Shown here: positions 22,217 through 51,336 of the stretch, one piece after another | Numbering within the stretch: position 1 is the first letter of the stretch | Layout of the letters: the number at the start of each line of letters is the position of its first letter | Assembly (NCBI RefSeq): GCF_011777505.1 | Contig: NZ_JAATJT010000002.1 | Location: forward strand, 496,001-560,000 | DNA length: 64,000 nucleotides | Source of the DNA: Gaetbulibacter sp. S0825 | Lineage (GTDB): Bacteria; Bacteroidota; Bacteroidia; Flavobacteriales; Flavobacteriaceae | Direction: 5' to 3' | Translations under genes and position numbers: made by a program | Notes under the pieces: model-generated | Database searches by the model: none | Told to the model about the DNA's origin: nothing | The model's input: only the letters and a program-made list of their open reading frames with translations

Positions 22217-22230
22217 CCACCAATAAAAAG

Positions 22231-22270
22231 AAAATCCCGCAAGGTGCTTTGAAGCATTCATCTTGCAGGA
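22231..22270 (-). terminator. Probable terminator for the 22301 gene
   Basis: TCC-C-GCAAG (22235-22243) faces CTTGC-A-GGA (22262-22270), with an inner TGCTT/AAGCA stem. On the minus strand it is followed by TTTTCTTTTTA. The stem has one mismatch and a 5-base bulge. Confidence 0.6.
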
Positions 22271-22300
22271 CTATCCAACTAACTAACCAAAATTATAATA

Positions 22301-23569
22301 TTATTGACGTCTTTTATTACTTCTAGAGCTTGAACTTCTGCTAGAACTAGATTTAGACTTTTGCCTTGCTTGTGGTGTTCTCTTTTTACTAGCTTGAGAA
22401 CTCTTGCTGCGTGAAGCACGTTGCTTAACACTTTGCGTTTTACGTTGTGTACTCGCTCTTTGAGTGGTTCTTGGCTTCGATGTGTTTTTAGACGTTGAAC
22501 GTACTCTAGGTTTTGTACTTGTATTTCTTTTCGCTTGTTGAGATCGTGACTGAGTTGTTGCTCTTTTTTGAGACCTACTAGCGTTATCATTTCTGTTTAC
22601 TGTTCTGTTAGAACGTGTTGCTTTTGCATCATTTGATGTTCTAGACCTAGTAGTTCTAGTGTCACTAGAAGTTCTAGCTCTATTTGTTGTAGCATCATTA
22701 CTTCTTCTAGTAGAAGACCTTGTAGCATCATTACTTCTTCTAGTAGAAGACCTTGTAGCACTGTTATTTCTAGTAGTTCTTACTTTTTGATCTACACTTG
22801 CTAAACGTCTGCTACTTCTTGTAGTAGTAGCATCACCACGTCTTGACGATCGCGTTTGCGCATATCTATCACTTTGTCTTGAAGAAGAACGTTGAGCTAC
22901 AGAGCTTGTGCGTCTGCTTGAGCTATATGACACTCTTGGTCTATAATTATCTCTATAAGGTCTGTAATAAGTATGTCTTATAGGTTCGTAATATCTTCTA
23001 TAAGGTCTATTAAATACAATTCTAAAGTCAATTAAAGGTCTGCTATAATAGGTGTGCCAAGGTCTATATACATAACCTCTGTTGTAAACATTAATAAATC
23101 CTGTACAGTGCGAAAACCTATTGTATGCATTGTAGTGTACATATAATCCACCAACTCGGTTTACGTAACCATAGTTGTTATATCTAATACGTACATCACC
23201 AGCGCGAACAATACGACCATAATAATCGTAATAGATTGGAATGTTTTCAATTTGCACAACGGCACCATAATCATCATATTGTACATAGGCATCGTAACTG
23301 TGCCCTGTGTTAAAACTAATACTTACACCATTAAAATCGCTATAAGCACTAAAGCGTGGACCATAATCTAGTACGTTAAAGTCGAACTGACCATCTGGAA
23401 ACACCGAAAACTCTACACCTTGTTCCACAAAGATGAAAGAATTACCATAACCTCTCACATAAGTGTTTTGTGCATGAGCATTAATATCTAAACTGTTGTC
23501 GGTTGATGTTGCGCTAACAGAGACTCCTGTAAGGAGCACACCTGCAAAAAATAATAGTAACTTTTTCAT
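22301..23569 (-). CDS. Exported beta-repeat protein with Arg/Ser/Thr-rich basic tail
   Basis: This 422-residue protein has a signal peptide (MKKLLLFFAGVLLTGVSVSA). Residues 47-64 read FVEQGVEFSVFPDGQFDF, and four short repeats follow at about 94-160, each roughly [I/V]xYxxYGxVxRxGxV (for example IYYDYYGRIVRAGDV and IRYNNYGYVNRVGGL). A Tyr/Arg-rich linker leads into a very basic low-complexity tail (about 215-422) of RSS, TRR, SQ and KR runs. The paralogue at 27538-28248 shares the signal region, the FVE-GVEF-FP-G block and the repeats, but not the tail. A sigma-54-like promoter lies at 23650-23665. An exported polycation could bind polysaccharide, DNA or LPS; this is inference. Function unknown. 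Confidence 0.78.
   Translation of the reverse strand: MKKLLLFFAGVLLTGVSVSATSTDNSLDINAHAQNTYVRGYGNSFIFVEQGVEFSVFPDGQFDFNVLDYGPRFSAYSDFNGVSISFNTGHSYDAYVQYDDYGAVVQIENIPIYYDYYGRIVRAGDVRIRYNNYGYVNRVGGLYVHYNAYNRFSHCTGFINVYNRGYVYRPWHTYYSRPLIDFRIVFNRPYRRYYEPIRHTYYRPYRDNYRPRVSYSSSRRTSSVAQRSSSRQSDRYAQTRSSRRGDATTTRSSRRLASVDQKVRTTRNNSATRSSTRRSNDATRSSTRRSNDATTNRARTSSDTRTTRSRTSNDAKATRSNRTVNRNDNASRSQKRATTQSRSQQAKRNTSTKPRVRSTSKNTSKPRTTQRASTQRKTQSVKQRASRSKSSQASKKRTPQARQKSKSSSSRSSSSRSNKRRQ
22688..22753. repeat. 33-bp tandem repeat, two perfect units, in the basic tail coding region
   Basis: Units at 22688-22720 and 22721-22753 are identical, and a partial third copy follows. The 33 bases are 11 codons and encode RSSTRRSNDAT twice. 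It is in frame, so copy-number change would lengthen or shorten the tail without breaking the gene. Confidence 0.9.
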
Positions 23570-23649
23570 CTTAATTTGATTTTTGCGTTAAGCAATACAA
23601 CAAACATGTACTACAAAACAATTCGTTTTTCTCTTGATACTTAATAGTT

Positions 23650-23665
23650 ACCAAGCATCGTGCCA
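23650..23665 (-). promoter_or_regulatory. Sigma-54 (RpoN)-type promoter for the 22301-23569 gene
   Basis: The minus strand reads TGGCACGATGCTTGGT, against consensus TGGCACG-N4-TTGCW. The -24 block is perfect and the -12 block has one mismatch (GG for GC), with correct spacing. The leader to the ATG at 23569 would be about 70 bases. The 12 bases TTTTGGCACGAT are identical upstream of the paralogue. Confidence 0.72.
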
Positions 23666-23823
23666 AAAGATGTTTTTAAATAAAACTACTTGAATATTAA
23701 GCTAATAAGTATGAATAGAATATTTAGATGTTGATAAGTTTATAAGAAGTGTATGAAAATCATTACTCTATCTTGTGAGAGTTTACGACCTTAGACCTAT
23801 AAATTAATTAAACACTATTTGAT

Positions 23824-24696
23824 ATGAAAAAAAATTACATTTTACATTGTATTGTTACTTGCTTAATTTTTATAAGCACACAAGTGATTGTTGCTCAATC
23901 TACCGAAGCTTTTGAAGGCGAAGCTGGTAAATCAACAACGTTTACTGATGGTGGACAAACATTTAATATAGTTTCTGCAGAAGGGTATGATGTCTTTCTT
24001 CATGGTACAGTAAATGGTATTGGACCAGGAACAGATAATTGTACTGGATGCGGTTGGAGTGGTTCTGCTCCAGACCAACAATTTGTTGATAATACAGGTA
24101 ATGGTAATTATGATGGAGATAACAATGGAAGTAGTTTCTCAATTGTTCCAGTTGGAATTGAAATGACTGTACAATCACTGTATCTTTTTTGTTCAACAAG
24201 ATCTTTAGCTGCAACTACTGGTACATTAACTATTACTGGTAATAAAGGAGGAGTAGAAGTTTTTTCTTTCTCAAAATCTTCTGGATTTGCAAGCCCAGTT
24301 ACATTTACACCAAATAATGGGTTTACATTTATTGATTTTGCAACAGAAGGAGCATCAGATTTTTCTATTAAAGGAATTGATGAATTAGTTATTTCTAGTA
24401 CTGGAAATTTAGATTATATGGCATTGGATGCATTTTCTTGGACATTAAATGTTTTATCAAATGATCACAAAGAGCTAAACAATATTTCTGTTTTCCCTAA
24501 CCCATCATCAGATTTTATTAATATGGCAAATTTGGAGACTTCAGAAAAATATAATGTGTATTCTATAACTGGGAGATTAATTAAGCAAGGTGTTGTTAGC
24601 AAAACAAAACCAATTAATATTCAAAATTTTTCTAAAGGCATATATTTTCTACAAATTGAAAACTCAAATAAAAGTTATAAGTTTATTAAAAATTAG
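23824..24696 (+). CDS. Secreted protein with T9SS type A C-terminal sorting domain
   Basis: This 290-residue protein has a signal peptide ending near TQVIVAQ. The beta-rich body contains CTGCGWSG and glycine/asparagine-rich loops (about residues 25-210). The C-terminal domain of about 75 residues has ISVFPNPSSDFINM, YNVYSITGRLIKQG, INIQNFSKGIYFLQIE and a final basic strand. That is the type A sorting signal read by the type IX secretion system, so the protein is exported to or attached on the cell surface. The body is unrecognised; it may bind carbohydrate or act as an adhesin. About 250 bases separate it from the divergent basic-tail gene. No T9SS machinery gene lies in the window. Confidence 0.88.
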   Translation: MKKNYILHCIVTCLIFISTQVIVAQSTEAFEGEAGKSTTFTDGGQTFNIVSAEGYDVFLHGTVNGIGPGTDNCTGCGWSGSAPDQQFVDNTGNGNYDGDNNGSSFSIVPVGIEMTVQSLYLFCSTRSLAATTGTLTITGNKGGVEVFSFSKSSGFASPVTFTPNNGFTFIDFATEGASDFSIKGIDELVISSTGNLDYMALDAFSWTLNVLSNDHKELNNISVFPNPSSDFINMANLETSEKYNVYSITGRLIKQGVVSKTKPINIQNFSKGIYFLQIENSNKSYKFIKN

Positions 24697-24746
24697 TATT
24701 TGTTTATGGCAAAAGGCTACATACTTATTAACTTAAACTAGCATCC

Positions 24747-25787
24747 ATGAAAAATTTAGCACTTTTTATTACATTATCACTCATTGTTTTTAGCTGTAAT
24801 AATTCAAAAGAAAAAGACGTCAAGAATTCTGAAAAAAGTAGTTACTTAGACTATTCCAAGCGTGATGACAAGCTTAGCGGTGGCGTAAAAATGATTCCAA
24901 TACAAACTGCTTCTGGTGAATTTAAGGTTTGGACCAAAAGAGTAGGGAATAACCCAACAATGAAAGTGTTATTGCTTCATGGAGGTCCTGGTGCTACCCA
25001 CGAATACTTTGAAGCTTTTGATTCGTATTTCCCAAATGCTGGAATTGAATACTATTATTACGACCAGTTGGAATCGGCGTACAGCGACCAACCAAACGAC
25101 AGTACATTATGGAGTGTTAATAGATATGTAGATGAAGTAGAACAAGTTCGCAAAGCTCTAGGTTTAAATAAAGATAATTTTTACTTATTAGGAAATTCTT
25201 GGGGAGGCATTTTATGTATGGAATATGCCTTAAAATATCAAGATAATTTAAAAGGATTGATTATTACCAATATGATGGCGTCTGTTCCTGAATATAATAA
25301 ATATGCCAATGAAGTTTTAGGGCCACAGTTGCCGCCAGAAGTTTTAAAAGAAGTTAAAGAATTAGAAGCCAAAGGAGAGTTTGATAACCCTAGATACAGT
25401 GAACTCTTATTTCAGCATTATTATACTGAGCATATTTTAAGAATGCCTCTTGATGAATGGCCAGACCCAGTAAATAGAGCGTTTGCTAAGATGAATCATG
25501 GCTTGTATATCACTATGCAAGGGCCAAGTGAATTTGGCATTGTTGGTGACGCAAAGTTAAAAGATTGGGATATTACTGCAGAATTACCAAAGATTACAGT
25601 ACCAACGTTAAGTATTGGTGGCGCTTACGACACCATGGATCCTAAACACATGGAATGGATTGCAACACAAGTACAAAACGGTCAATATTTGCATTGTCCA
25701 AATGGTAGTCATATGTCTATGTACGATGATGCAGAAACGTATTTTAAAGGCTTGATTAAGTTTATTAAGGAAGTGGATAAAAAATAA
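24747..25787 (+). CDS. Proline iminopeptidase-type S33 peptidase, lipoprotein
   Basis: This 346-residue alpha/beta hydrolase has a lipoprotein signal (LSLIVFSC, Cys at residue 17), unlike cytoplasmic proline iminopeptidases. The oxyanion-hole motif HGGPGATHEYF, the nucleophile LLGNSWGGILCMEYAL, the acid in GGAYDTMDPKH and the histidine in PNGSHMSMYD are all present. It should remove N-terminal proline from peptides at the envelope. It is followed after 10 bases by a beta-lactamase-fold hydrolase, and the two are probably co-transcribed. A tripeptidyl- or other aminopeptidase specificity is possible. Confidence 0.88.
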   Translation: MKNLALFITLSLIVFSCNNSKEKDVKNSEKSSYLDYSKRDDKLSGGVKMIPIQTASGEFKVWTKRVGNNPTMKVLLLHGGPGATHEYFEAFDSYFPNAGIEYYYYDQLESAYSDQPNDSTLWSVNRYVDEVEQVRKALGLNKDNFYLLGNSWGGILCMEYALKYQDNLKGLIITNMMASVPEYNKYANEVLGPQLPPEVLKEVKELEAKGEFDNPRYSELLFQHYYTEHILRMPLDEWPDPVNRAFAKMNHGLYITMQGPSEFGIVGDAKLKDWDITAELPKITVPTLSIGGAYDTMDPKHMEWIATQVQNGQYLHCPNGSHMSMYDDAETYFKGLIKFIKEVDKK

Positions 25788-25797
25788 AAAGCGAATT

Positions 25798-27462
25798 ATG
25801 AAAAACTATTTTTTAATAATATGTTGTCTCTTATCATTCACAGCACCTGGACAAGTAAAAGATAACGAGGCTATTGATAAAGTTTTTGCAGACTGGAATA
25901 AAATAGACGCTCCAGGAGCTGCTCTAGGAATTGTAAAAAACGGAAAACTTATCTATGCTAAGGGATATGGTATGGCAGATTTAGAGCATGATTTGCCAAT
26001 CACGCCTTCTTCTGTTTTTTATACAGGATCTGTTTCAAAACAATTTGTAACCTTTGCTATTCTATTACTTGAAGAAGAAGGTAAATTGAATTTAGATGAT
26101 GAAATTCAAGTCTTTTTACCAGACTTTCCAAAATATGAAGCTCCGTTAACGATTAGACATTTTATACACCATACCAGTGGTGTTAGAGATTATTTAACAT
26201 TGATGGCTTTAAAAGGAAGAAGTTATCTAGATAACATGGAAGTGGATGAGGTATACGAATTAATAAAGAGCCAAAAAGTTCTAAATTTTTCTCCTGGAGA
26301 TCAATACTTATACAGTAACTCCTGCTATTTTATGTTAGCAATGATTGTTGAAAAAGCAGCAGGTAAATCCATAAGAGATTTTGCTGAAGAAAAGATGTTT
26401 GGGCCGCTAGGGATGAAAAACACACTTTTTTATGATGATAATAGAGATCTTATAAAGAATAAAGTGTTTAGTTATGAAAAGAAAACAGAAGGAGAGGGTT
26501 TTAATAACCTAATAATGAGGTTTGATCTAGTTGGTTCTGGAGGTGTTTATTCCAGTATAGAAGATCTTTTGTTGTGGGATCAAAATTTTTATAATAATAT
26601 TCTAGGTAAAGGAGGTCAAGACATTATTACTAAAATGCATCAAGAAGGACTGCTTAATAATGGAAAGAGTAGTGGGTATGCTTTTGCGCTAAATAATGGA
26701 ACTTATAAAGGATTAAAAACTGTTAGTCACGGTGGTTCTTTAGCTGGGTATCGTGCGCAATTAATGCGTTTTCCAGATCAAAGTTTTTCTGTAATTATTT
26801 TGGCTAATAGAAATGATGCAAATCCAACTGTTATGAGTTACCAAGTTGCTGACATTCTTTTAAAAGATAACTTCAAAGAAAAGCCTGAAAAAGTTGTTAA
26901 GAAACCCGTTACGCCAACTTCAAATAGTAAAACAGAATTTGCCTTAAAGCAAATGACTGGTCTTTATGAAATACAACAAGGAGTTGATGCAGAAATTACT
27001 ATTAAAGACGGAAAGTTAAATGTTTTGCAAAAATGGAACAATTCGTCCTACCCTATAGTAAATACAAACGGAAATATATTCGAGATACCTAATAATGATA
27101 CAATACAATTTATTTTTTCAAATTTAAAGAATGATCAAACTCAAGTGCTTACAGTTGTTCAAAATGGTAATAAAACTACTTCTAAGCGGAAAGAAGAAGC
27201 TACTTTATTAAAAATCAATTTAAAAATATACTTGGGTAATTATTATAATGCAGAAATTAATGCTATTTACCAATTAGTATTGCATGATGGTGTTTTAAAA
27301 GTAAAAATACCAAATGAACAACCCGAAGAAATTGTACGAATTGATAATGATAAATTTTTATTTGATGGTGTTGTGTTTAGATTTATTAGAACAGATGGTA
27401 AGATAACTGGCCTTTTTGTTGATGCTGGCAGGGTTAAGAATTTAGAATTTATTAAGCAATAG
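25798..27462 (+). CDS. Beta-lactamase-fold serine hydrolase (class C / PBP4*-like)
   Basis: This 554-residue exported enzyme has a signal peptide (MKNYFLIICCLLSFTAPGQ). The catalytic SVSK (SxxK) lies in FYTGSVSKQFV, the Tyr motif is YSN in YLYSNSCYF, and the third motif is HGG in VSHGGSLAGYR. These define the serine beta-lactamase-like family whose members are mostly D-amino-acid peptidases or esterases, rarely true beta-lactamases. A C-terminal domain (about 385-554) of lipocalin-like strands resembles the DUF3471-type appendix. It lies 10 bases downstream of the S33 peptidase gene. Antibiotic resistance is not implied. Confidence 0.88.
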   Translation: MKNYFLIICCLLSFTAPGQVKDNEAIDKVFADWNKIDAPGAALGIVKNGKLIYAKGYGMADLEHDLPITPSSVFYTGSVSKQFVTFAILLLEEEGKLNLDDEIQVFLPDFPKYEAPLTIRHFIHHTSGVRDYLTLMALKGRSYLDNMEVDEVYELIKSQKVLNFSPGDQYLYSNSCYFMLAMIVEKAAGKSIRDFAEEKMFGPLGMKNTLFYDDNRDLIKNKVFSYEKKTEGEGFNNLIMRFDLVGSGGVYSSIEDLLLWDQNFYNNILGKGGQDIITKMHQEGLLNNGKSSGYAFALNNGTYKGLKTVSHGGSLAGYRAQLMRFPDQSFSVIILANRNDANPTVMSYQVADILLKDNFKEKPEKVVKKPVTPTSNSKTEFALKQMTGLYEIQQGVDAEITIKDGKLNVLQKWNNSSYPIVNTNGNIFEIPNNDTIQFIFSNLKNDQTQVLTVVQNGNKTTSKRKEEATLLKINLKIYLGNYYNAEINAIYQLVLHDGVLKVKIPNEQPEEIVRIDNDKFLFDGVVFRFIRTDGKITGLFVDAGRVKNLEFIKQ

Positions 27463-27537
27463 AAAACCCCAAAAGTCATTGGGAAATAACTAATGAGGTT
27501 TCTAAATAACCAATTTTAGTAGGTTACGAACAATAGG

Positions 27538-28248
27538 TTAATACTTGCGTCTTTTTTTAACGCCTTTCTTTTTCTTTTTTAAGGTTTTATCATTCTTTCT
27601 GTAATAGTAGTAATCGTCATCGCGACCATCCCATCTATCATCATATCTATCATCATCATACCAATCGTTGTCTTTATGGAAATGATCGGTTGTGCAACCT
27701 GTCATTCCACAAAAGCCACAACCTTGGTTGCTTCTATTAACTTTTCCTCGTACGTCAATCATATCACCCCAACGGTTGTATTGTATATGCAAACCACCAA
27801 CTTGTTTAAGTTGACCAAAACGATATTGCATATATACTGAACCTATACGTTTTACACGTCCTTGATAATCATAGTTAATAAACACATTACCAATTCTACG
27901 TACACGTCCTAATCGGTCATGGGTAATAATAACACCACGTGGACGGTTGTAGTTAATTCTTACTCCTGGTGCTCCAAAAGTGGCATTAATGCTACCACGC
28001 TTAGTTCTCGATTTTCGGTAATATGAATCACCAAAATGTCCATAATTGACATCGGTATTAAAATCGAATTCACCATTTGGAAAGATTAAGAATTCCACAC
28101 CACGCTCCACAAACAAAATAGGTTGCGTAAAACGATAGCGTTTCGTAATTCTTAAATCTTTACTGTCTAATTCAGAAACTTGTTCTGATGCTGTTGCAAA
28201 TGTTACTCCAAGTAACATAGTTGCTAATACTAAAGTAATTTTTCTCAT
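27538..28248 (-). CDS. Exported beta-repeat protein with acidic/His and Lys-rich tail (paralogue of 22301-23569)
   Basis: This 236-residue protein has a signal peptide (MRKITLVLATMLLGVTFATA). Residues 47-64 read FVERGVEFLIFPNGEFDF. Four repeats follow at about 106-170: VIITHDRLGRVRRIGNVF, INYDYQGRVKRIGSVY, MQYRFGQLKQVGGLH and IQYNRWGDMIDVRGKV. Then comes a cysteine cluster CGFCGMTGC (177-185), an Asp/Tyr/His-rich acidic segment (about 187-216) and a Lys-rich end KKKKKGVKKRRKY. The N-terminal two-thirds matches its paralogue; the tail is unrelated. A TGGCACG -24 element lies at 28326-28332. The cysteines and His/Asp suggest metal or redox chemistry, which is inference. Function unknown. Confidence 0.78.
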   Translation of the reverse strand: MRKITLVLATMLLGVTFATASEQVSELDSKDLRITKRYRFTQPILFVERGVEFLIFPNGEFDFNTDVNYGHFGDSYYRKSRTKRGSINATFGAPGVRINYNRPRGVIITHDRLGRVRRIGNVFINYDYQGRVKRIGSVYMQYRFGQLKQVGGLHIQYNRWGDMIDVRGKVNRSNQGCGFCGMTGCTTDHFHKDNDWYDDDRYDDRWDGRDDDYYYYRKNDKTLKKKKKGVKKRRKY

Positions 28249-28316
28249 AGTAAAAGTATTTAAGATTAATGCCTACTCATTTAGCTTTTCGGCTTACGCT
28301 ATTTGTTAAGGTAGTT

Positions 28317-28332
28317 TTCATTTATCGTGCCA
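28317..28332 (-). promoter_or_regulatory. Sigma-54 (RpoN)-like promoter for the 27538-28248 gene
   Basis: The minus strand reads TGGCACGATAAATGAA: a perfect -24 TGGCACG and a weaker -12 (ATGAA for TTGCW) at correct spacing. The leader to the ATG at 28248 is about 60 bases. It shares TTTTGGCACGAT exactly with the site at 23650-23665. Confidence 0.6.
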
Positions 28333-28468
28333 AAATTGTAAGTATCTGAAATACAACAGTTAACATGATTTTGTAACAAGTTGTTGGTATTACTCGTCAT
28401 TATAATGAAGAAGTAATCTTCTTTTTATTAAATTTATATCGCACTATAAAATCGTTAACCAACCATCG

Positions 28469-29596
28469 ATGGCAAAAAATTCCGAAATAACCAATTCTTC
28501 AGAAAATGACGAGAACGTAGATTTTGCATTAGAGCAAAACATAACGACGTGTCAAAACTGTGAAAAGGAGCATAATATCGAGTTTGATTTTTGCCCTCAT
28601 TGCGGACAACAAACCAATGATGAGCTAACGGTTGGCGTATTGTTTTATAATACCATTGCCAATTATTTCTCGTTCGATGCACGATTTTTTAGAAGCTTTA
28701 TTCCTTTAGTATTTAAGCCAGGGATTTTAGCAAAACGTTTTGTAAGTGGTAAACGTTTAATGTATTTGCATCCAGCACAAATGTATTTGTTTATTTCTGT
28801 TGTGTTTTTCTTCATGTTTTCGTTTACAATTCGAGAGTATAATGCCAATTTTGATAAAGTTTTGAGGAAAGGTTTTGAAGTTGAGCAATCTAAGGACTCT
28901 ATTAACCTAAGACCTTTAGATTCTGCTGCTATTGCTAAGATTGCTAAGCCATTGCAGAACGAAAACTTAATGTCAGGACTTTCTGAAGAGGAAAAAGAAG
29001 CTATGGATTCTATATTGACAGCTGCTTCTAATCCAGCTAATGTTAAGAATAACTTCAATTTTGGGTATGATACAAAAAAATTAGACTCCTTAATAGCTAT
29101 TAATGCACCTGAAAAGGAGCAATTGCAGGCTGTAGGTATGAAAGAAGATGCAGGATTTTTTAAAAAGCAGTTTTTTAGGCAGTTAATTAAGTTTCATAAA
29201 AATAGAGGAGGAGGTATTGTGCAAGCAATTTTTGATAGTGTGCCTATTTCGTTATTTATTCTCTTACCAATATTTGCACTGTTGCTTAAAATATTTTATT
29301 GGCGCCGAGGACGATTTGCACATCATTTAGTATTTAGTTTCTATTATTTCTCCTTTTTGTTTACTGTGATGTGTATTATAATTGGCATAAATTATATTGT
29401 GGAAATCCCAGATTGGATAGATTTTCTGGTGCTTCTCTCAACATTTTTCTACTTAGTTTTTGCAGTACGAAATTATTATGAACAAGGCTTTTTTATTAGT
29501 TTGATAAAATCATCAATGCTCACATTTATGTATATGATGGTTGTAGTTCCTATGGCAATTGCAATTATGCTTGTATTGTCATTTTTACTTTATTAA
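28469..29596 (+). CDS. DUF3667 domain-containing zinc-ribbon membrane protein
   Basis: This 375-residue protein has an N-terminal zinc ribbon (CQNC, then CPHCGQQ at about residues 28-48), the DUF3667 signature. It continues into about four to five membrane segments in two groups (about 95-115 and 255-375) separated by a helical charged region. HLVFSFYYFSFLF and a preceding RRGRFAHH are typical of the family. It lies in the inner membrane with the ribbon in the cytoplasm. Function is unknown. Its stop overlaps the end of the converging 29593-30282 gene by 4 bases. Confidence 0.85.
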   Translation: MAKNSEITNSSENDENVDFALEQNITTCQNCEKEHNIEFDFCPHCGQQTNDELTVGVLFYNTIANYFSFDARFFRSFIPLVFKPGILAKRFVSGKRLMYLHPAQMYLFISVVFFFMFSFTIREYNANFDKVLRKGFEVEQSKDSINLRPLDSAAIAKIAKPLQNENLMSGLSEEEKEAMDSILTAASNPANVKNNFNFGYDTKKLDSLIAINAPEKEQLQAVGMKEDAGFFKKQFFRQLIKFHKNRGGGIVQAIFDSVPISLFILLPIFALLLKIFYWRRGRFAHHLVFSFYYFSFLFTVMCIIIGINYIVEIPDWIDFLVLLSTFFYLVFAVRNYYEQGFFISLIKSSMLTFMYMMVVVPMAIAIMLVLSFLLY

Positions 29597-50064: not shown

Positions 50065-51336
50065 TTACTTCAACTTCTTCAAAGACTTAGCAACTAATAC
50101 ACATACACAGCTATCACCAGAAATATTCACTACCGTTCGTGCCATGTCCAAAGGTCTATCAACTGACATTATCATCGCTAAGGCAACTGCTAATTTCTCA
50201 GAAGGAAATCCAACAGATTCTAAAACTATCACTAACATAATAATACCAGCACTTGGTGTTGCTGCTGCACCAATAGATGCAAGCGTTGCTGTAAGTACAA
50301 TAGTTAATTGGTCGGTTAAAGTTAAATCATGTCCCAAAACTTGGCATACAAAAACGGCTGCAATGGCTTGCATTAAACTTGTGGCATCCATATTTATGGT
50401 AGCTCCAACTGGACATACGAAACTACTTATTTCTTGTTCAACACCTAGATTTTCTTCAACACATTTCATGGTTACTGGTAGTGTTGCCATACTAGAACTT
50501 GTAGTCAATGCTGTAAGTTGCGCTGGTAATATGCCCTTTAAAAAATATTTAGGCGATTTTTTGGCGTATAGCATAATTAGTAGTACATACACACCAACCA
50601 ATAACAACATACCAAATAGGAGTAAAGCAGCATATCTTAATAAAGCAATAAATAACTCGGCATTGGTAGTTTCTGCGATAAGCGTCGCGATTAAAGCAGC
50701 AACTGCGTAAGGAGCAGTAAGCATGATAACATCCACCATTTTAAGCATGATTCTATTTATTGAATCAATCAACTTTTTTACTGGTTTTGTATGTTTACTA
50801 GGTATTAAGAGCATGCATACGCTAAAAAAGATGGTCACAAAAATGACTTGCAACATACTTGCATTATTAGTAAATGCACTAAACATATTTTGAGGCACTA
50901 GCTCTACAAAAAAGCTTAACGGTCCTTTATCCCCAACATCAGCAGAAGCTATTTTATCGCTCATGCTTGCTGTAAAACCTTCAGACAGATTGATTAAAGC
51001 ATCAGGATTTACATTAGAGCCTGGTGAAAAGGTGTTTACTAAAAACAATCCTAAGACAACGGCCAAAACTGTTGTAAATAAATAAAATCCAATAGTTCTA
51101 CCTCCAATTTTTGATAAATCGGATAAATCTTTAAAATCGGTAATGCCTTTAGAGAGTGACACAATCACTAACGGAACAGCAATGAGCTTTAAAAGGCTTA
51201 TAAATATTTGCCCTATGGGTTTAATCCAATCGGTTACAAAACCCTGTCCCCAAGAAAATTGAATAGCGACTAGACCAATAATAACACCTAATAGCATTCC
51301 TAATAGAATTTTCCAATGCAATGCCATTTTTTTCAT
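50065..51336 (-). CDS. Dicarboxylate/amino acid:cation symporter (DAACS, GltP/DctA-like)
   Basis: This 423-residue inner-membrane transporter of the glutamate-aspartate family has eight or so membrane segments and two re-entrant hairpins. The serine-rich motif ALTTSSSMATLPVTM and the transport motif TINMDATSLMQAIAAVF (family NMDGT reads NMDAT here) are present, as is GAAATPSAGIIMLVIVL. It imports C4-dicarboxylates, aspartate or glutamate with Na+ or H+. It starts 13 bases after the lolD-like gene and is probably co-transcribed, though the functional link is unclear. Confidence 0.93.
   Translation of the reverse strand: MKKMALHWKILLGMLLGVIIGLVAIQFSWGQGFVTDWIKPIGQIFISLLKLIAVPLVIVSLSKGITDFKDLSDLSKIGGRTIGFYLFTTVLAVVLGLFLVNTFSPGSNVNPDALINLSEGFTASMSDKIASADVGDKGPLSFFVELVPQNMFSAFTNNASMLQVIFVTIFFSVCMLLIPSKHTKPVKKLIDSINRIMLKMVDVIMLTAPYAVAALIATLIAETTNAELFIALLRYAALLLFGMLLLVGVYVLLIMLYAKKSPKYFLKGILPAQLTALTTSSSMATLPVTMKCVEENLGVEQEISSFVCPVGATINMDATSLMQAIAAVFVCQVLGHDLTLTDQLTIVLTATLASIGAAATPSAGIIMLVIVLESVGFPSEKLAVALAMIMSVDRPLDMARTVVNISGDSCVCVLVAKSLKKLK

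Follow-up and report, generated by a model that had tools for sequence, protein, structure and literature searches.

What controls two neighbouring flavobacterial genes that encode paralogous exported proteins and share the same 12 bases upstream, and what else is expressed with them? The question arises from a stretch of 64,000 nucleotides (nt) of Gaetbulibacter sp. S0825 (NZ_JAATJT010000002.1, positions 496,001-560,000 of the forward strand), called the window here, in which these genes are referred to as A and B (Table 1). The original prediction for this DNA had assigned both genes to one regulon under RpoN (sigma-54). The explanation that we consider probable as a whole is that A and B are members of a flavobacterial sigma-54 envelope-stress regulon which has an RNA arm. 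Two features beyond that prediction, a DUF805b leader of B and a common 3' module, contribute to it.

Sigma-54-type promoters of A and B

The sequence TTTTGGCACGAT was confirmed as the core of both -24/-12 promoters, at 23657-23668 (-) and 28324-28335 (-). With up to one mismatch these were its only matches in the window, where 0.42 were expected; two or more turned up in 5 of 100 shuffles, which makes the window on its own no more than suggestive. The motif TGGCACG was found four times, at both promoters and at 50138 and 55227, and the latter two copies are spanned by open stretches of 127-204 codons, in agreement with the earlier statement that no other copy was intergenic. Degenerate sigma-54 matches were at chance level (31 vs. 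25 expected), and the window by itself therefore proves little.

The main support for the promoters is conservation across Flavobacteriaceae orthologues. Genes were assigned to classes (A, B, lipoprotein C, DUF3667, other) by profile hidden Markov models, and a subset of loci was retrieved by protein match alone, for which the promoter pattern was not used (protein-fetched loci). Among these, a promoter with at least 10 of 11 consensus bases preceded 86/95 A and 75/89 B genes, compared to 0/81 DUF3667 genes and 3/195 other genes, so that the predicted motif held up in relatives. B orthologues carried TTTTGGCACG-N4-TTG at a steady distance to the start codon and A orthologues typically TTTTTGGCACGCTGTTTG, with the four spacer bases varying while the promoter itself was kept. 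The TGGCAC -24 element with its GG is present in both genes and conserved in orthologues, with TTGGT (A) and ATGAA (B) in the -12 position, as had been stated.

Some observations speak against these promoters being read by RpoN. In the -12 element the G is kept at the right spacing, and the C of the classical GC is not: A, G or T stands in its place in 67/67 scored B sites and in 18/19 A sites shown, the latter from an alignment of 19 of 41 A sequences in which 22, among them the window's own A, were skipped by a too strict pattern. Of the predicted form TGGCAC-N5-TTGC, the -24 element and TTG were conserved and the final C was not. Promoter scores were below 9/11 in 5/95 A and 4/89 B genes, and upstream of A and B no common activator-binding site was found, only A/T-rich or neighbour-gene words. 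Three of the four low-scoring B genes (L343, L356 and L386; L and G numbers are our handles for loci and genomes) come after an apparently inserted gene E, and in the genome of L356 (G032) the exact promoter was, among the matches listed, upstream of gene E. Between promoter and B, the gene for protein E (148 aa, exported), or the part of it that was visible, was seen in L022 and L356 (G032), L088 (G062), L343 and L386.

Loss of the -12 C would also fit a different sigma factor, either housekeeping or of the extracytoplasmic function (ECF) type, with an accidental resemblance to -24/-12 promoters. We regard this as very unlikely, since TTGGCACG and TTG are conserved at fixed spacing, and in Flavobacterium psychrophilum the housekeeping box (TAnnTTTG) and the ECF-type box (CGT) differ from them, whereas the motif SM4 is of the -24/-12 type (PMC9723704). 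Coincidence of two similar 12-mers in an AT-rich window, which the shuffles and the chance level of degenerate matches would allow, is refuted by the conservation in A and B but not in other genes and has a negligible probability.

The wider regulon and its candidate activators

The gene rpoN was found in 20/21 genomes searched, including that of Gaetbulibacter sp. S0825. Across 100 family genomes TTTGGCACGNNNNTTG gave 157 sites and its reversed form 23; enrichment of the exact pattern was weaker outside the family. Of 99 sites in retrieved loci, 60 preceded a gene on the same strand, and 59 of these 60 genes passed the crude custom signal-peptide test that defines 'exported' throughout. Genes behind these sites include A, B, lipoprotein C (LWYVDIN motif), a lipoprotein D (CGGVKKTQ motif) and gene E. 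Allowing up to one mismatch, the genome of Gaetbulibacter sp. S0825 itself contained 41 sites, 12 of them intergenic and 10 ahead of a same-strand gene, with exported products in 10/10 cases; the reversed control gave 22 sites, 2 intergenic, 1 ahead of a gene and 1 exported. An OmpH/Skp-like protein, an M23-type peptidase and lipoproteins are among these ten (named by eye). Near-consensus sites are hence not restricted to A and B, and the genome-wide scan bears out the proposal of one regulon with exported products. Matches some 290 nt ahead of acpP fall within an open reading frame (ORF) of the opposite strand and were left uncounted as promoters.

Four strong sigma-54 activators are encoded in this genome and are candidates for driving A and B. 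The first is a PAS protein. The second combines a receiver with an AAA+ domain, adjoins an MscS channel gene and gave no helix-turn-helix match (L036:1258-2421(-)); it may act without a binding site. The third has no receiver and is encoded after a miaB-like gene and before lptE, and the fourth is of the receiver type, beside a gene resembling a histidine kinase.

In F. psychrophilum a sigma-54 (SM4) regulon was mapped by 5'-end RNA-seq and covers envelope stress, gliding, Skp, chaperones and exported proteins without a known function; clpB and one putative RNA, Rfp36, belong to it as well (Guerin et al. 2021, PMC9723704). The likeness lies in the -24/-12 promoters and in the kinds of product encoded behind them (Skp, chaperones, lipoproteins and functionally unassigned exported proteins). 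The regulon described here matches it and is therefore known in kind, so the claim of an undescribed exported system is not supported in the form in which it was made. In the sections consulted, an lptE-linked activator is listed under another motif (SM5), and neither a common 3' module nor a coupling to DUF805b is named (PMC9723704).

A common 3' module, putative short transcripts and a candidate target

The mRNA of A is predicted to end in UUUUGGUURGUUAGUU followed by a terminator. Gene-class counts with a tolerance of up to 2 mismatches placed this 3' module at 86/103 A genes, 18/21 C genes, 14/105 B genes, 0/83 DUF3667 genes and 1/547 other genes over all loci, and at 79/93 A, 0/79 DUF3667 and 0/201 other genes in protein-fetched loci. 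The promoter pattern served to retrieve the C loci and most of those of the short transcripts described below, which biases the 5' counts for them. Perfect copies of TTTTGGTTRGTTAGT occur twice in the genome of Gaetbulibacter sp. S0825, after A and in a short transcript on contig C5. Its clpB (L040, L457, contig C4) and the next gene both end in the module with a near-identical terminator; the promoter region of this clpB lies outside the retrieved locus.

Behind several of the conserved sigma-54-type sites there was no long ORF. Downstream, these sites share TTTTTGGTTGGTTAGTTAG and then an intrinsic terminator, with variable or unrelated middles between site and module. The module was found within 190 nt of 25/339 sigma-54-type sites, compared to 1 for the reversed module and 0 for its reverse complement; the reversed promoter pattern, with just 3 sites in retrieved loci, was too rare to serve as a control for this proximity. 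L224 and L240 lie inside long same-strand frames, are probably coding and were dropped, leaving 23 candidates in 22 genomes, known as sequence only, with a longest ATG frame of 44 codons. The candidate of Gaetbulibacter sp. S0825 (L416:1360-1515(-), contig C5) has a sigma-54-type promoter, a stem-loop, the module and a terminator; in its predicted fold (z -5.5), the linker ahead of the terminator holds most of the module. A predicted promoter and terminator of their own, the lack of a long ORF and conservation are sequence features of small RNAs, and no credible Rfam match was obtained for the loci scanned. Taken together, this suggests that the short transcripts are small RNAs with one common pairing region. 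Within the open PubMed Central (PMC) literature, the predicted ending of A mRNA, C mRNA and short transcripts in one module plus terminator appears to be novel.

A possible target was seen directly beside B, in the divergently encoded DUF3667 gene. Leaders of DUF3667 genes contained a complement to the module of at least 8 perfect bases in 30/75 cases, compared to 1.0 with shuffled leaders and 1.9 with shuffled targets. Their mean duplex energy with the module was -11.6 kcal/mol vs. -7.0 for other genes, and this difference of -4.5 compares with -0.3 (standard deviation, sd, 0.8) for 30 shuffled modules. We propose the DUF3667 gene as the best candidate target of the small RNAs, a rather doubtful assignment to which we give about one chance in three.

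The complement might instead be a translation-initiation signal of DUF3667, or a site on the DNA at which the activator of B acts, and we regard this as a real possibility, though short of an even one. It would agree with the divergent arrangement of DUF3667 and B in 67/74 loci and with the absence of a good site in 39/86 DUF3667 genes, which also weakens the proposed target. However, the complement is mostly missing from other genes, and the DNA-site version in particular is at odds with its position, which is fixed to the start codon (5.1 +/- 2.5 nt before the ATG) and not to the B promoter (sd 34 nt in 41 loci).

A rival that we find somewhat less probable, although still quite possible, accepts the sigma-54 regulon and takes the module merely as a favoured terminator-proximal sequence or a protein-binding site, for stability or 3'-end processing, with no regulatory RNA involved. 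Where read, the module precedes a terminator, and start-codon complements are not clearly enriched genome-wide. Little is known, moreover, about small-RNA chaperones in the Bacteroidota. This rival has to account for the near absence of the module at 3' ends of other genes, for its presence on 23 short transcripts with variable middles and for the fixed distance of the complement before DUF3667 starts.

Further points count against a regulatory RNA. With one mismatch, the module had 8 matches in the genome of Gaetbulibacter sp. S0825 vs. 5 for its reversed form, and only four of the eight were followed by a clear terminator (by eye), namely those after A, in the short transcript, after lipoprotein C and after the gene downstream of clpB. 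The low count of the module at B genes confines a possible RNA arm to A, C and the short transcripts. Start-codon complements outside DUF3667 were found in 23/858 genes, above the 6.7 for shuffled leaders and close to the 20.6 for shuffled targets, which leaves a genome-wide set of mRNA targets unsupported. The DUF3667 genes are orthologues and not independent, so they count as one case, not many. It could be, with a probability slightly under one half, that in the sigma-54 envelope-stress response of Flavobacteriaceae mRNA 3' ends (A, C and probably clpB) and short RNAs, all carrying UUUUGGUUGGUUAGU, silence mRNAs with a start-codon complement, DUF3667 first among them.

Table 1. Positions of genes and sequence elements at the A-B locus (window coordinates)
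Feature	Position	Strand	Remarks
Terminator hairpin of A (intrinsic)	22229..22276	-	loop conserved in orthologues; z -2.7 for 22222-22300
3' module of A, TTTTGGTTAGTTAGT	22278..22292	-	8 nt past the stop codon; one of two perfect genome matches
Gene A, 422 aa exported protein	22301..23569	-	signal peptide, repeat core common with B, Arg/Ser-rich basic tail
Sigma-54-type promoter of A, TTTTGGCACGATGCTTGGT	23650..23668	-	
Three genes between A and B	23824..27462	+	type IX secretion system-sorted protein, alpha/beta-hydrolase lipoprotein, serine hydrolase
Terminator hairpin of B	27460..27504	-	preceded by TTGGTTATTTAG, a weak form of the 3' module; z -4.2 for 27450-27537
Gene B, 236 aa exported protein	27538..28248	-	signal peptide, YD-like repeat core, acidic stretch, Lys-rich end
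DUF805b RNA (RF02914), leader of B	28270..28302	-	Rfam, 41.0 bits vs. gathering cut-off 35.6
Sigma-54-type promoter of B, TTTTGGCACGATAAATGAA	28317..28335	-	
Candidate target site, TAACCAACCA	28456..28465	+	complement of the 3' module; 3 nt ahead of the DUF3667 start codon
DUF3667 gene	28469..29596	+	divergent neighbour of B; candidate target of the RNA arm

The leader of B, the encoded proteins and the proposed response

A DUF805b element forms the leader of B. Its core lies 36-40 nt past the start of the -24 box in 53/56 named B loci with an element match, the pattern having matched 56 of 80 leaders, with a variant hairpin in several of the other 24. The element should thus start at about +2 to +5 of the predicted sigma-54 transcript of B. 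We examined 90 of more than 150 listed DUF805b sites, and at 78 of these 90, sites of all kinds, the element ended 14-31 nt before the next start codon. In an H-type pseudoknot drawn in this analysis, helix S1 had 4/4 pairs in 68/90 and helix S2 3/3 pairs in 83/90 elements, with several pair types, a tally which leans towards pairing, since the Rfam model had served to find the elements and the offset of S1 was picked for best pairing. Folded with pseudoknots ignored, the B leader was no better than shuffles (z +1.0), which counts against the overall explanation. In Winogradskyella-type B leaders (L327, L330, L332, L344, L347-L349, L352, L353, L369 and L375) one pseudoknot helix is kept, and a longer hairpin with compensatory changes takes the place of the other; eight loci with variant or similar leaders gave no credible Rfam match. 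The predicted transcript starts a few bases from the pseudoknot, whose end is about 20 nt before the start codon, and B is therefore most likely under a second, translational control by its leader. DUF805b as the leader of B, placed at the expected transcript start, would likewise be novel within the open PMC literature.

This coupling does not extend to DUF805b in general. While the leader of B scores above the cut-off for RF02914 (clan CL00115) and both helices pair in most elements, the RNA elsewhere precedes unrelated genes, many of them for small exported proteins or peptides: at 72/90 sites, ahead of unrelated genes, the sigma-54 site scored at most 9/12, which rules out DUF805b as a general sigma-54 companion. 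The 18 sites with a sigma-54 site belonged to 16 B genes, one gene E and one position without an ORF found. DUF805b is therefore a separate module that was coupled to the promoter by the B family. In G032 and G062, two DUF805b copies stand about 0.5 kb apart at genes E and B, apparently one per gene. Among the products encoded behind DUF805b elements (L055-L144) are several short peptides of a double-glycine-leader-like type and many small exported proteins (named by eye), and a common role of this RNA may lie in secreted peptides.

The predicted paralogy of A and B in their N-terminal parts, with different tails, was borne out by 31% identity over 178 aa (E=4e-19). Neither family matched Pfam (E up to 1) or, above cut-off, NCBIfam, and a relative of A or B was present in 124/149 Flavobacteriaceae genomes, each of a different genus. 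The closest B in a scan of named genomes was that of Pontimicrobium aquaticum, at 98% identity. A followed directly after B in 31/74 relatives, and the three plus-strand genes between them in the window showed no sign of regulon membership. Basic tails (net charge of at least +5 in the last 30 residues) were found in 105/107 A, 29/29 C and 36/106 B proteins, compared to 19/278 other exported proteins. Those of A and lipoprotein C probably serve the binding of an anionic envelope component. A lipoprotein behind a sigma-54-type site of Gaetbulibacter sp. S0825 (L202) has a Ser/Arg-rich tail resembling that of A.

AlphaFold, applied to 26 B sequences, was confident in the repeat core only, with an overall mean predicted local distance difference test (pLDDT) score of 55.5. 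The core (residues ~97-190) aligned to RHS/teneurin beta-repeat strands with a best Z of 7.8 (root-mean-square deviation 4.3, 110 residues aligned; weak model), and the best Foldseek E was 0.05. At the sequence level, no YD/RHS repeat model was matched, either in Pfam (E up to 1) or above cut-off in NCBIfam. The modelled core of B thus looks like YD/RHS-type beta-repeats, below the tool's mark for a clear match. Unlike YD/RHS repeat proteins and teneurins, B is far shorter and lacks the Pfam match, and a Z below 8 may reflect a common arrangement only. Searching solved structures by sequence returned synaptotagmin rows only, at E 0.26 or worse.

In the response that we propose, RpoN polymerase would wait at TTTTGGCACG-N4-TTG until an enhancer-binding activator released it under envelope stress, as suggested by the sequences and the mapped F. 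psychrophilum regulon. Both exported products have a repeat core in common. The B transcript would begin near the DUF805b pseudoknot, which would add a layer of translational control, and A and C mRNAs as well as the short transcripts would end in the same UUUUGGUUGGUUAGU stretch and then a terminator. Each pulse of sigma-54 transcription might in this way also free small RNAs that use one common pairing region to act on other mRNAs. Enterobacterial envelope-stress responses employ small RNAs and RNAs derived from 3' untranslated regions, such as MicA, RybB, MicL and CpxQ. The likeness is that an alternative sigma factor or envelope response drives both proteins and RNAs and that mRNA 3' ends are a source of RNA; here, by contrast, the sigma factor would be sigma-54, and one identical stretch, known from sequence alone, is found on predicted mRNAs and on separate putative transcripts, in a phylum that, to our knowledge, generally lacks Hfq.

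If mRNA 3' ends and short RNAs do silence targets in this way, promoter class and pairing region would be inherited together and mark a transcript at both of its ends. Regulon members might also be recognised in sequence data by their 3' module, which pointed to clpB, a gene published as sigma-54-driven in a relative. A guess on two genes has in this way become a testable regulon, with relatives of A or B across most of the family genomes. If the RNA arm is real, DUF805b would gain a defined transcriptional setting for studies of its function, and the Flavobacteriaceae would possess a small-RNA response that spans the family, in a phylum whose small RNAs are poorly understood.

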